A stretch of 64,000 bases of DNA from Roseovarius litorisediminis. GTDB taxonomy: Bacteria > Pseudomonadota > Alphaproteobacteria > Rhodobacterales > Rhodobacteraceae. The stretch's first letter is position 1; every line of letters begins with the position of its first letter. The notes beneath the pieces are model-generated. The model saw nothing but the letters and a program-made list of their open reading frames with translations. It had not been told where the DNA came from and made no database searches. The translations under genes and the position numbers were made by a program. This document shows positions 31,118 through 58,018 of the stretch, piece after piece. The stretch is taken from the NCBI RefSeq assembly GCF_900172295.1, contig NZ_FWFL01000002.1:186001-250000 (forward strand), read 5' to 3'.

Positions 31118-31466
31118 TGTCAGAGTCATCCTTTTGAGGGCCTGCAAGTTGCAGCCATAAATTTTTGTTGTAAGTGGATGTCACACTGTCAAAGCCACCG
31201 CCCGGTTTATCGGTGCGGCGTTCGCGTTTTACAGTCGTGCGGTCGGCTGGTCGCAGCCTGTTATGCGCGGGGCATAAAATCTCCAGATCAGATGCAGGTT
31301 TTTTTAGGGTAGGCCCGAACGTAATACAAGCCGCGTTGCGATCGGGCGGGATCACGTCCTGGCAAATCCGGAAAGCGGCTGAAGCGAACGTTTTGTACGC
31401 CTGCCAGCTCTGCCACCCGGAAATGCGTACGGAATCCACGTACGAAACGAACAGAGCGTACGAAAT
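31118..31466. other. 349-bp intergenic region with CGTACG palindromes
   Basis: No convincing gene is present; open frames on both strands lack ribosome sites and recognisable content. Three CGTACG palindromes cluster near the SixA stop. A short stem TTATGC/GCATAA occurs at 31261-31277. On the minus strand this is the upstream region of the GNAT gene. A run of seven T at about 31292 is not preceded by a strong stem. Confidence 0.4.
31426..31462. repeat. CGTACG palindrome cluster, copy A
   Basis: CGTACG occurs at 31426-31431, 31439-31444 and 31457-31462. The 12-mer ACGTACGAAACG (31438-31449) also occurs at 57521-57532, and the 13-mer GCGTACGAAATTC (31456-31468) recurs on the minus strand at 57538-57550. 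Sharing of two different units between two loci points to a dispersed element or operator array. Confidence 0.6.
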
Positions 31467-31958
31467 TCAGTCGGTCAATTCCTTCGGAATCACAAAGGCT
31501 TTTAACTGTCCGGTGCCCGGTTTCAGATCTGCCCAGTCATCGATTTGAAAATCAACCACTAGTGTCGCACAGGTGGGGAAATCGCTGAATCTGGGGTGGT
31601 CCGGTGTCGCGGCTACCAAATCGCCAGCAAAAAAAGCGATGCCGGGATTATGCCCCAGCATCAGAACCACACTTCCGGAAGCCTTGCGCAATTCTTCCAA
31701 CATCCGCCCGGGTCCGGCAAGATAAAGACTGTCCAGAAAATTTTTCGGGCTATCAAACCCAAGCAGCGCACAGGTCTCTTTCGTGCGCGCTGAAGTCGAG
31801 CTAAGTATCTGATCTGGAATATAATTGCTTGATTTCAACCAAGATCCAAGCGCGCCTGCAGCGCGTCGGCCCCGCCCATTCAACGGCCTCTCATGATCAT
31901 CCAGCCCCGGTTGTCCCCAGCTGGATTTGGCATGCCGCATCAAAATCAAACGCTTCAT
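31467..31958 (-). CDS. SixA-like histidine phosphatase
   Basis: A 163-residue phosphohistidine phosphatase-type protein. It begins MKRLILMRHAKSSW (RHAKS is the catalytic RHG-type motif with the phospho-acceptor His9), continues RPLNGRGRRAA and SSTSARTKETC, and has the second His in VLMLGHNPGI. E. coli SixA removes phosphate from histidine phosphotransfer proteins or the nitrogen PTS; the target here is unknown. GGAGG precedes the ATG well, and the start overlaps the Fe-S protein stop (ATGA). Confidence 0.88.
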   Translation of the reverse strand: MKRLILMRHAKSSWGQPGLDDHERPLNGRGRRAAGALGSWLKSSNYIPDQILSSTSARTKETCALLGFDSPKNFLDSLYLAGPGRMLEELRKASGSVVLMLGHNPGIAFFAGDLVAATPDHPRFSDFPTCATLVVDFQIDDWADLKPGTGQLKAFVIPKELTD

Positions 31959-32596
31959 TTGAACGCCTCCATATGAAATGCCGACTGCTCTTCTGTCCGG
32001 CCATAGGACTGGCTGATCGGGCAAGCCCGACGAGTGGCGCAACCCTTTGACATACAATGATTTTCCGGTTGATCAAGATCAGTTTTGCAGGCCGCAACAT
32101 CATAATTTTCAGGTCTTAATGCATCAACCGGACAAGCAGTTATACAGGGCTTGTTTTCGCATTTTATACAAGGGTTTTCGCTGATTTCAGGCAAATCCAG
32201 CTGTTCCCGAAACCCCAAGGCCCCGCGATACGACACCATCAACCCTGCCACATCATGCACCAGCAACCCCACCGGCGAGATAAAAGCCCGCCCACTTTTC
32301 GTGGCCCATTGGATAAACGGTTGGTATGGTGGCCCGCCAAACGGAAAATAAGCTTTGGCATTCAGTGTCTTGGCCAGATCAGAAATGACCCTTGACGACC
32401 ATCGATCCAGCGGGTCATCCAGCCGGTCCCGGTATTCCGGGGAGGCGGTGAAATGGGCCCAGAATCCAGGTTCCCTTGGACCAAGCAGGACCAGTGTCTG
32501 AATATCGTCGTTCAGATCACCGGGCGCGCAGTGCAGCGCGCCAAAGACGCAAAGATTTTCAGAATAAGAAGCGATATCAATGTTTTGAAGCTTCAT
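31955..32596 (-). CDS. Ferredoxin-like Fe-S protein (QueG C-terminal type cysteine pattern)
   Basis: A 213-residue protein. The C-terminal third holds Cys143, 146, 151, 155 (CIKCENKPCITACP), Cys170 and Cys181, 186, 192 (CMSKGCATRRACP), enough for two [4Fe-4S] clusters in the order seen at the end of epoxyqueuosine reductase. The cobalamin-binding part of QueG is not evident in the first 140 residues, so it is probably not QueG. ATG 32596 overlaps the hydroxylase stop by 4 bp and is chosen over 32626. Electron delivery to the neighbouring di-iron hydroxylase is a possibility. Confidence 0.72.
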   Translation of the reverse strand: MKLQNIDIASYSENLCVFGALHCAPGDLNDDIQTLVLLGPREPGFWAHFTASPEYRDRLDDPLDRWSSRVISDLAKTLNAKAYFPFGGPPYQPFIQWATKSGRAFISPVGLLVHDVAGLMVSYRGALGFREQLDLPEISENPCIKCENKPCITACPVDALRPENYDVAACKTDLDQPENHCMSKGCATRRACPISQSYGRTEEQSAFHMEAFK

Positions 32597-56108: not shown

Positions 56109-57497
56109 TCAGGCGTGAATAGCGCCGTCACCACAGGCAAGGGCCGCTTCGCGCACCGCTTCGGAGTAAGTGGGGTGGGCGTGACAGGTAAGGGCCAGAT
56201 CCTGGGCTGATGCGCCAAATTCCATAGCCACACAAATCTCGTGGATCAGGTCGCCGGCGGCGGGGCCGATAATGTGGGCGCCAAGGATGCGGTCGGTTTC
56301 GGCGTCGGCCAGGATTTTGACAAACCCGTCGCCTGCGAACACGGCCTTGGCACGTCCGTTACCCATGAAAGAAAACTTGCCGACCTTATACTTACGTCCT
56401 TGTTCTTTTAGCGATTCTTCGGTTGCGCCCACATTCGAAACTTCGGGGTGTGTATAGATCACGCCGGGGATGACGCCGTAATTGACGTGGCCATGTTTGC
56501 CCGCCAGTACTTCGGCGCAGGCCATGCCTTCATCTTCGGCTTTGTGGGCCAACATGGGCCCGTCGATGGCATCGCCGATTGCGTAGATGCCTTTGACCGA
56601 TGTTTGCCAGTGGTCGTCGGTTTCGATCTGACCGCGTTTGGAAAGGGTGACGCCAAGGCCCTCAAGACCCAGACCATCAGTATAAGGTTTGCGGCCTGTG
56701 GCGACGAGGACAACATCGGCGTCGAGGGTTGTGTCAGTGTCGTTCTTGCGCAGTTTGTAGTGCACTTTGGCCTTGGTTTTCATCGCCTCAACCGATTGCA
56801 CGGCGGCGCCCATGACAAATTTAAGCCCCTGTTTTTTCAGCATTCTCTGGAAGGTTTTTTGCACTTCGCCATCCATGCCGGGGGTGATGGCATCAAGGAA
56901 TTCGACAACAGTCACCTCAGAGCCCAGACGGGAATAGACGCTGCCCAGTTCAAGACCGATGACGCCTGCGCCGATAACGACCATTTTCTTGGGCACTTTG
57001 CCCAGTTCCAGCGCGCCGGTGGAAGTGACGACGACCTTTTCATCAACCTCAACGCCCGGCAGAGAGGAAGATTCAGAACCGGTGGCGATGATGATATTCT
57101 TGGCTTCGTGCACCACATCCCCGACCTTGACCTTGCCCGCCTCGGGGATCGAGCCCCAACCTTTGAGCCAGTCTACCTTGTTCTTTTTAAAAAGAAATTC
57201 AATGCCCTTGGTGTTCTGTCCAATGACGTCATCCTTGTAGGCGAGCATCTGTTTCCAGTCGACCGAAGGGGATTTGCCCTTGAGACCCATCTTGGCAAAA
57301 TTATGCTCGGCCTCGTGCAGCATATGGCTGGCATGCAGCAGGGCCTTGGAGGGGATACAGCCGACGTTCAGGCAAGTGCCGCCAAGGGTTTCACGGCCCT
57401 CGACACAAGCGGTTTTCAGGCCAAGCTGGGCGCAGCGGATGGCGCTGACATAGCCGCCGGGGCCGGAACCGATGATGATAACGTCATATTGTGCCAT
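56109..57497 (-). CDS. lpdA: Dihydrolipoyl dehydrogenase (E3)
   Basis: A 462-residue FAD disulfide oxidoreductase that reoxidises dihydrolipoamide. FAD site [10 protein letters not shown], redox disulfide [15 protein letters not shown] (Cys42 and Cys47), NAD site [17 protein letters not shown] site [20 protein letters not shown] and the His-Glu pair in [19 protein letters not shown] precedes the ATG. Last gene of the suc run on the minus strand, so it serves 2-oxoglutarate dehydrogenase. The CGTACG repeat array lies in its leader. Confidence 0.96.
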
Positions 57498-57518
57498 GGG
57501 TATCTCCTATGGGGATTG

Positions 57519-57593
57519 AAACGTACGAAACGTACGCGAATTTCGTACGCGATTTGAAGGCTTTTCGAAAATGAGCGTACGTTTCGTACGTTT
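57519..57593. repeat. CGTACG inverted-repeat array upstream of lpdA (copy B)
   Basis: AAACGTACGAAACGTACGC (57519-57537) and its exact reverse complement GCGTACGTTTCGTACGTTT (57575-57593) form perfect 19-bp arms; a further CGTACG sits in the 37-nt middle at 57544-57549, five in all. It lies 22 bp upstream of the lpdA start. Units match those near 31.44 kb. It could be an operator array or a mobile palindrome. Confidence 0.75.
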
Positions 57594-57607: not shown

Positions 57608-58018
57608 TCATATCAGGGCGGCCACCAGCATGAGGGCGGTGGCGAGAAATCCGACAGACCAGATCACCGAGCGCCACGGCACAAGGCCAAAGAAATAGGC
57701 CGGCACATAGAGGACGCGCGCGGTGAGGTAAGTAAATGCACAGCCGGTTGTGAAAGATGTGGACTGACCCGAAACCGTAATCACCACACAGGCGATGGAA
57801 AACAGAATGAGCCCTTCAAAATGATTATTGAGCGCCCGGATAAGCCGACCGGTTTGTGGGCTGACCTGTTCGATCAGCGGCTTGCCAAGACGATGCGGAT
57901 CGCGGGGCGACAGGGTTTTGGCGGTGCCCAGTTCCATGTTCGCAGGCACGGACATGAGCACGTACTGGACCACTTGCAAAAGGGCGGCGAGGGTGAGGGC
58001 GGTGAGTTCAGGGGTCAT
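57608..58018 (-). CDS. MAPEG-family membrane protein
   Basis: A 136-residue membrane protein with four helices of the MAPEG family (membrane-associated eicosanoid/glutathione metabolism). Marks: N-terminal helix LTALTLAALLQVVQYVLM, RLIRALNNHFEGLILFSIACV (RAxxNHxE-type motif), LTARVLYVPAYFFGLVPWRS. Bacterial members are mostly uncharacterised and may bind glutathione. It lies inside the suc-lpd gene run. The first nine codons and upstream bases are duplicated 113 bp upstream. Confidence 0.88.
   Translation of the reverse strand: MTPELTALTLAALLQVVQYVLMSVPANMELGTAKTLSPRDPHRLGKPLIEQVSPQTGRLIRALNNHFEGLILFSIACVVITVSGQSTSFTTGCAFTYLTARVLYVPAYFFGLVPWRSVIWSVGFLATALMLVAALI

Follow-up and report, generated by a model that had tools for sequence, protein, structure and literature searches.

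What are the palindromes that crowd the DNA in front of an lpdA-like gene in the marine bacterium Roseovarius litorisediminis? Short dispersed palindromes are common, and their function is mostly unsettled. Five copies of CGTACG stand at 57522-57590 and three more at 31426-31462 of the window, by which we mean the whole 64,000-nucleotide stretch analyzed here. A sequence-only reading had reported both clusters together with a 19-bp perfect inverted repeat before lpdA, and had proposed either a binding array for a regulator or a small mobile palindrome. We found the hexamers as described and located the arms of the inverted repeat at 57519-57537 and 57575-57593. The number of CGTACG hexamers in the window is ordinary (12 copies against 7.33 expected, a count reached by 7 of 100 shuffles). 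Their clustering is not: across the 3,998,736 bases of the genome, CGTACG-N(2-30)-CGTACG occurs 98 times, compared with 14 occurrences of the reversed pattern.

A phased array of 4-bp cores

The repeat unit is a phased array rather than the hexamer. Its 4-bp cores, which read GTAC in this genome, stand at offsets 0, 9, 18, 31, 63 and 72, with variable letters but constant spacing between them, and an array carries four to six such cores over up to 76 bp. The three-core pattern GTAC-N5-GTAC-N9-GTAC has 34 exact matches in the genome of the window (G000) and none when reversed; together with the paired hexamers, these counts rule out a chance origin of the clusters and bear out the earlier claim that the element is dispersed, well above what controls give. 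In arrays found by the exact pattern, the search itself sets slots 2-4, and slots 1, 5 and 6 are free of that bias. Picked by slots 2-4 only, 109 of 124 arrays have GTAC as slot 1 at exactly -9. In G000, 20 of 34 arrays have slot 5 at +32 from slot 4, and 17 have slot 6 at +41; the corresponding counts are 10 and 9 of 15 in G007, 6 and 5 of 7 in G030, and 7 and 7 of 10 in G014. Other offsets past slot 4 gave no more than single matches in these four genomes. At least eight species among those read have a core at offset 63, and most of these have one at offset 72 as well. Neither slot 5 nor slot 6 was seen in G045 (0 of 20 at +32, with one GTAC at +31), G028 (0 of 10) or G036 (0 of 8). Between slots 4 and 5, the intervening 28 nt are constant in length and not in letters.

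The first window array (57519-57593, plus strand) lies between the lpdA-like gene (56109-57497, minus strand; Pyr_redox_2 and Pyr_redox_dim) and the stop codon of a MAPEG-family gene (57608-58018, minus strand), and comprises slots 2-6 of the six. Slot 1 is lost, reading GATT at 57514-57517, whereas GTAC fills slot 2 (57523-57526), slot 3 (57532-57535, +9 bp), slot 4 (57545-57548, +13 bp), slot 5 (57577-57580, +32 bp) and slot 6 (57586-57589, +9 bp), all on the plus strand. The left arm of the inverted repeat contains slots 2 and 3, and the right arm contains slots 5 and 6. The second array (31386-31461, minus strand) has all six slots, with first plus-strand bases at 31458 (GTAC), 31449 (GTTC), 31440 (GTAC), 31427 (GTAC), 31395 (GTAC, the fifth slot, 31395-31398, overlooked before) and 31386 (GTTC), which means that two of its six cores have decayed to GTTC. 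It starts 5 nt past the stop codon of a histidine-phosphatase gene (31467-31961, open frame to 32057, minus strand; His_Phos_1) and runs in the direction of that gene. The lpdA array is opposite in kind, with its slot-6 end 18 nt from the MAPEG stop codon. A sequence model built from 45 arrays scored the two window arrays at 30.5 bits (lpdA) and 30.6 bits (31.4 kb), with neither copy in the training set. The sequence-only reading was right that the two sites are related, and the fuller picture, which it did not see, is that they are copies of one six-slot array.

Occurrence in Roseovarius and its family

Among 84 Roseovarius genomes, the three-core pattern has 16-67 matches in 12, G000 included, and at most three in the other 72, with 0-5 per genome for the reversed-pattern controls. 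A survey of 394 Rhodobacteraceae genomes including G000, almost one per genus, found a match in nine, and more than one match only in G000 (34), G336 (11), G485 (7) and G468 (2). In G336, which belongs to another genus of the family, the eight of 11 matches that were read (L225-L245) are GTAC-type arrays, seven of them with a GCGTTTGTGACA-like left flank, and this genome seems to have its own dialect of the array family. A stricter pattern with 20 fixed letters retrieved 18 stretches from 84,980 species genomes, of which 13 are titled Roseovarius, two Rhodobacteraceae bacterium, and one each Streptomyces, Prevotellaceae and Propionibacteriaceae. We rejected a plasmid or phage home for the arrays: searches of plasmids with the array and a scan of viral contigs for the exact stricter pattern gave no match.

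The sequence model has 65 matches in G000 and, across the 84 Roseovarius genomes, at least 14 matches in 17, 1-5 in 10 and none in 57; these matches are not copy numbers, as an array can match on both strands and at most 72 candidates per genome were scored, under stricter filters. The model leans to GTAC and misses drifted cores, such as those behind moaE in G023 (GCAC, GTGC, GCAC, GTAC). Searching for drifted cores gave TTAC, GTAC, TTAC, GTAC in G024 (one match in 400 kb) and GTAA, GTAA, GTAA, GTAC in G040 (one in 200 kb); neither G032, over 200 kb, nor any of five shifted geometries gave a match. The drifted arrays (GTAA/TTAC) stand at position 11964 of L497 (minus-strand count) in G040 and at position 12195 of L463 (plus strand) in G024, two genomes in which the GTAC model has 0 and 2 matches, respectively. 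An open search, in which repeated units of any kind at 9/9/13 counted, exceeded shifted geometries in G024 (280 versus 92-132), G032 (65 versus 36-43) and G040 (195 versus 56-69), but we discounted this excess and drew nothing from it, because a 9-bp spacing is in step with the periodicity of codons.

In a tree built from 30 lpdA genes, carriers are patchily distributed and do not form one clade, with at least four changes forced. Taken together, we conclude that both window sites are copies of a multi-copy phased-array family that is found mainly in one genus, Roseovarius.

Arrays and the ends of genes

We examined the position of arrays relative to genes in eight genomes, using our own simple, uncurated gene caller and gene names recognized from translations. 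The sample comprised all 34 pattern matches of G000, 20 of 36 in G045, 20 of 50 in G007, 20 of 44 in G030, 20 of 67 in G034, 10 of 21 in G028, 8 of 16 in G036 and 10 of 31 in G014; two G036 loci in hand (L122, L350) were omitted as not array-like. The 109 four-unit arrays fall into 40 convergent, 57 tandem and 8 divergent gaps, with 4 inside genes, and the 13 three-unit arrays into 4 convergent and 8 tandem gaps, with 1 inside a gene. Compared with array-free gaps of at least 60 bp in the fetched loci and the window (21 convergent, 92 tandem, 45 divergent), arrays show an excess of convergent gaps (p 5e-6) and a deficit of divergent ones (p 3e-5). Of the 71 four-unit arrays whose left-hand gene ends toward them, 53 have slot 1 beginning 2-18 nt past the stop codon, and 32 have it 2-6 nt past. 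The neighboring genes are of mixed function by translation. The expectation that the clusters sit upstream of central metabolism genes is not borne out: most sampled arrays follow genes, which are of various kinds, and do not stand at promoters. This 3'-end location suggests a role of the arrays as boundaries.

A few further sites were observed alongside. A gene that resembles the one for 2-isopropylmalate synthase (leuA-like, named from its translation only) has an array upstream at L276 (G007) and L343 (G028), which makes this one of the few divergent-gap positions seen twice. In G007 and G030, composite elements join a TTAACA-GGGCGCGCGGTGAG-like stretch to three GTAC units (L037, L043, L274, L278, L287, L296); they occur in many copies in both genomes, several with 12-bp ACCGAC repeats beyond. 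We classed apart the 18 arrays of these genomes that have TTAACA or TTAACG at most 45 bp upstream (3 convergent, 11 tandem, 4 divergent). ACCGAC-type direct repeats with 12-bp spacing also stand upstream of lpdA in G007, G032, G030, G008, G014 and G046 (L092, L096, L101, L104, L106, L098), where such repeats just before the gene, e.g., ACCGACGTGATACCGAC, replace the GTAC array in several relatives; they may be another dispersed array family or a genuine regulatory site.

Shared sites, genome dialects and competing explanations

Several array positions are shared between genomes. Among the best 30 moaE loci of 80 genomes with a moaE match, the 10 from array-rich genomes all have an array behind moaE; of the other 20, only the locus of G023 has one, as judged by eye. 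The moaE array is also found in G082 (by coordinates) and G095 (by its flank), and the complete exact-match lists of G028, G045 and G113 hold none behind moaE. An array at rpoA-rplQ is common to G000, G030 and G045, and to G036 by its flank, and the array before lpdA is common to G000 and G045 only, out of 30 lpdA upstream regions. An array within ispDF stands in frame in G000, G007, G034, G021, G104 and G095 (L267, L176, L324, L422, L397, L437) and encodes about 14 residues that are CCTKxAYxSYVLYE-like. In G000, this stretch aligns without gaps to solved IspD, which indicates that the array uses existing codons and adds no length.

The letters of the slots follow the genome. In model-found arrays, which lean to GTAC in slots 1-4 and are free in slots 5 and 6 (G005, G021, G090, G095), slot 2 reads GTCC in 8 of 8 G090 and 13 of 13 G095 arrays read, and slot 3 reads CTAC in 15 of 17 G021 arrays read. 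In G034 (L307-L326), slot 5 is GTCC in 11 of 20 arrays and slot 6 is GGAC in 18 of 20, with the palindrome TGCGTCCATNATGGACGCA at +32/+41. Furthermore, in each of the nine genomes that had enough arrays for the comparison, the moaE array is closer to the other arrays of its own genome than to its counterparts at moaE in other species. We conclude that the array family changes in concert within each genome.

Such within-genome likeness, and the slot-specific dialects common to the copies of a genome, favor a REP/MITE-like selfish repeat, in which master copies would spread through some transposase or gene conversion and be tolerated at gene ends with no host factor involved. The patchy occurrence on the lpdA tree, where a single clade is rejected, and the array-sized gap by which G036 and its relative G040 differ at the moaE site point the same way. 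However, slot 1 has kept GTAC in most arrays though linkers vary, positions are common to distant lineages, and the ispDF array of G000 shows no insertion, with the same motif in frame in five more genomes; nor did the arrays turn up in plasmids or, as the exact pattern, in viral contigs. In REPINs, which accompany RAYT transposases, short palindromic units in a fixed arrangement are repeated within genomes. GTAC arrays differ in that RAYT does not track them: NF047646 exceeds its cut-off in 42 of 84 Roseovarius genomes (L189-L218), 6 of the 17 that are array-rich and 36 of the remaining 67 (p 0.28), and has no match in G000. Having searched with PF01797 and NF047646, we rejected RAYT or another Y1 transposase as the mobilizer. 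We regard a selfish repeat as possible but somewhat doubtful. The small mobile palindrome of the sequence-only reading may be correct, but no mobilizing enzyme was found for it and the ispDF array of G000 speaks against insertion.

Published families of repeats bear on this explanation. PMC3733652 presents REPs as stem-loops of 20-40 bp (CGTC stems of 8-9 bp) with a GTAG or CGTC end, dispersed in many copies and with letters that differ by species; most lie between genes that converge or run in one direction, frequently less than 20 bp from 3' ends, and some lie inside genes; the CGTC class is given there as mostly alphaproteobacterial, with no known transposase. GTAC arrays are likewise multi-copy, extragenic and at gene 3' ends, and both this siting and the CGTC class without a known transposase can be counted in favor of a selfish repeat. 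They differ from REPs and BIMEs in that they are not single 20-40 bp stem-loops but four to six cores at 0/9/18/31/63/72, with varying linkers and a species dialect of their own for each slot. Within the arrays, GTAG occurs at slot 1 in two of the 17 from G021, and the letters CGTC appear at slot 2 in G090 and G095 and at slot 5 in G034. The CGTC letters add to the case for a selfish repeat, and a distant REP kinship is conceivable because of these GTAG and CGTC letters and because CGTC REPs also have no known transposase. Rickettsia palindromic elements and repeats of the YPAL/ERIC type are described in PMC2759123 as small mobile palindromic repeats near or inside genes that add sequence; GTAC arrays are also small, palindromic and near or inside genes, but the ispDF array of G000 adds no length. 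Literature searches on Roseovarius, Rhodobacteraceae, Roseobacter and alphaproteobacterial palindromic or interspersed repeats turned up no description of GTAC arrays, and the few papers retrieved were unrelated by title. Because the arrays are not single stem-loops and RAYT does not track them, we do not file them as members of the REP families, and we read them as a previously undescribed variant of bacterial dispersed palindromic repeats.

A 3' UTR RNA element, in which paired units would form stem-loops that end or protect transcripts, is decidedly unlikely. Sense-oriented arrays do begin a few nucleotides past stop codons, their units are able to pair with each other, and in several dialects the consensus flanks of slot 1 are complementary to those of slot 4. 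Across genomes, paired cells exceeded all 500 shuffles, but they did so for two foldings that are mutually incompatible and score alike, and this between-genome test therefore does not decide the matter. Within genomes, we found no covariation of unit flanks, of outer flanks (p 0.43 and 0.60) or of linkers, where the sole hint is 23~56 in G000 (p 0.053). Slot 2 of G090 and G095 (GTCC) mispairs with GTAC slots, and the slot 4-5 gap, constant in length and free in letters, also argues against a folded RNA. An intrinsic terminator has a GC hairpin and a T run; L016 does have a T run, but such runs are not general behind arrays. Terminators were called at 10 of 61 array ends and at a similar rate elsewhere (37 of 166), which gives no direct indication that arrays replace terminators, and we rejected this role. 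Rfam searches of six loci returned four matches (E up to 1), none of which overlaps an array.

Tandem operator boxes of the ribbon-helix-helix or TrpR type are short palindromes every 8-9 bp that have one box sequence and serve few promoters. GTAC arrays resemble them in their short palindromes and close regular spacing, but stand at 3' ends, in dozens of copies and with slot-specific letters. An operator array of a transcription regulator for lpdA and central metabolism is very improbable, because the copy directly upstream of lpdA in G000 and G045 is present in only 2 of 30 such regions and, despite the copies upstream of the leuA-like gene in G007 and G028, only 8 of 109 arrays lie in divergent gaps and the neighbors of arrays are of mixed function. 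The sequence-only reading had set conservation before lpdA in close relatives as a test, and the lpdA-specific version of it fails on this count.

We favor, at a probability of roughly 0.45, a phased-array family that would act as a docking site for a putative factor and mark a boundary at gene ends. A protein complex specific to this lineage would dock on the array as double-stranded DNA and read the cores in fixed geometry, with the 63 bp corresponding to six helical turns. Recognition of double-stranded DNA in a fixed register is favored over an RNA hairpin because the spacing is rigid while the letters between cores are free, the cores are conserved and pairing within genomes was not found. 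Bound between convergent genes or just past a stop codon, the complex would create a boundary that may stop or insulate transcription or anchor the chromosome, and the array would serve gene 3' ends in the manner of a BIME/REP cluster, not as an operator at promoters. A single homodimeric protein would hardly account for the slot-specific dialects, for which a complex with distinct pockets, or else copying from a master, fits better. A more detailed form of the docking-site reading, which we consider unlikely, is an undescribed gene-end boundary system in which a lineage-specific nucleoprotein or nucleic-acid-guided complex would dock past stop codons and recognize six distinct 4-bp slots in fixed helical register, at dozens of sites that are often inherited. 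Its slot preferences would shift genome-wide, giving all arrays of a species one slot-specific dialect, even in ispDF. Among the neighbors of divergent arrays, read from their translations, there was no candidate for an autoregulated factor gene.

The rigid geometry, the often shared positions and the genome-wide slot letters make recognition in trans directly testable. The arrays would furthermore offer a clear example of dozens of dispersed bacterial sites that evolve in concert.
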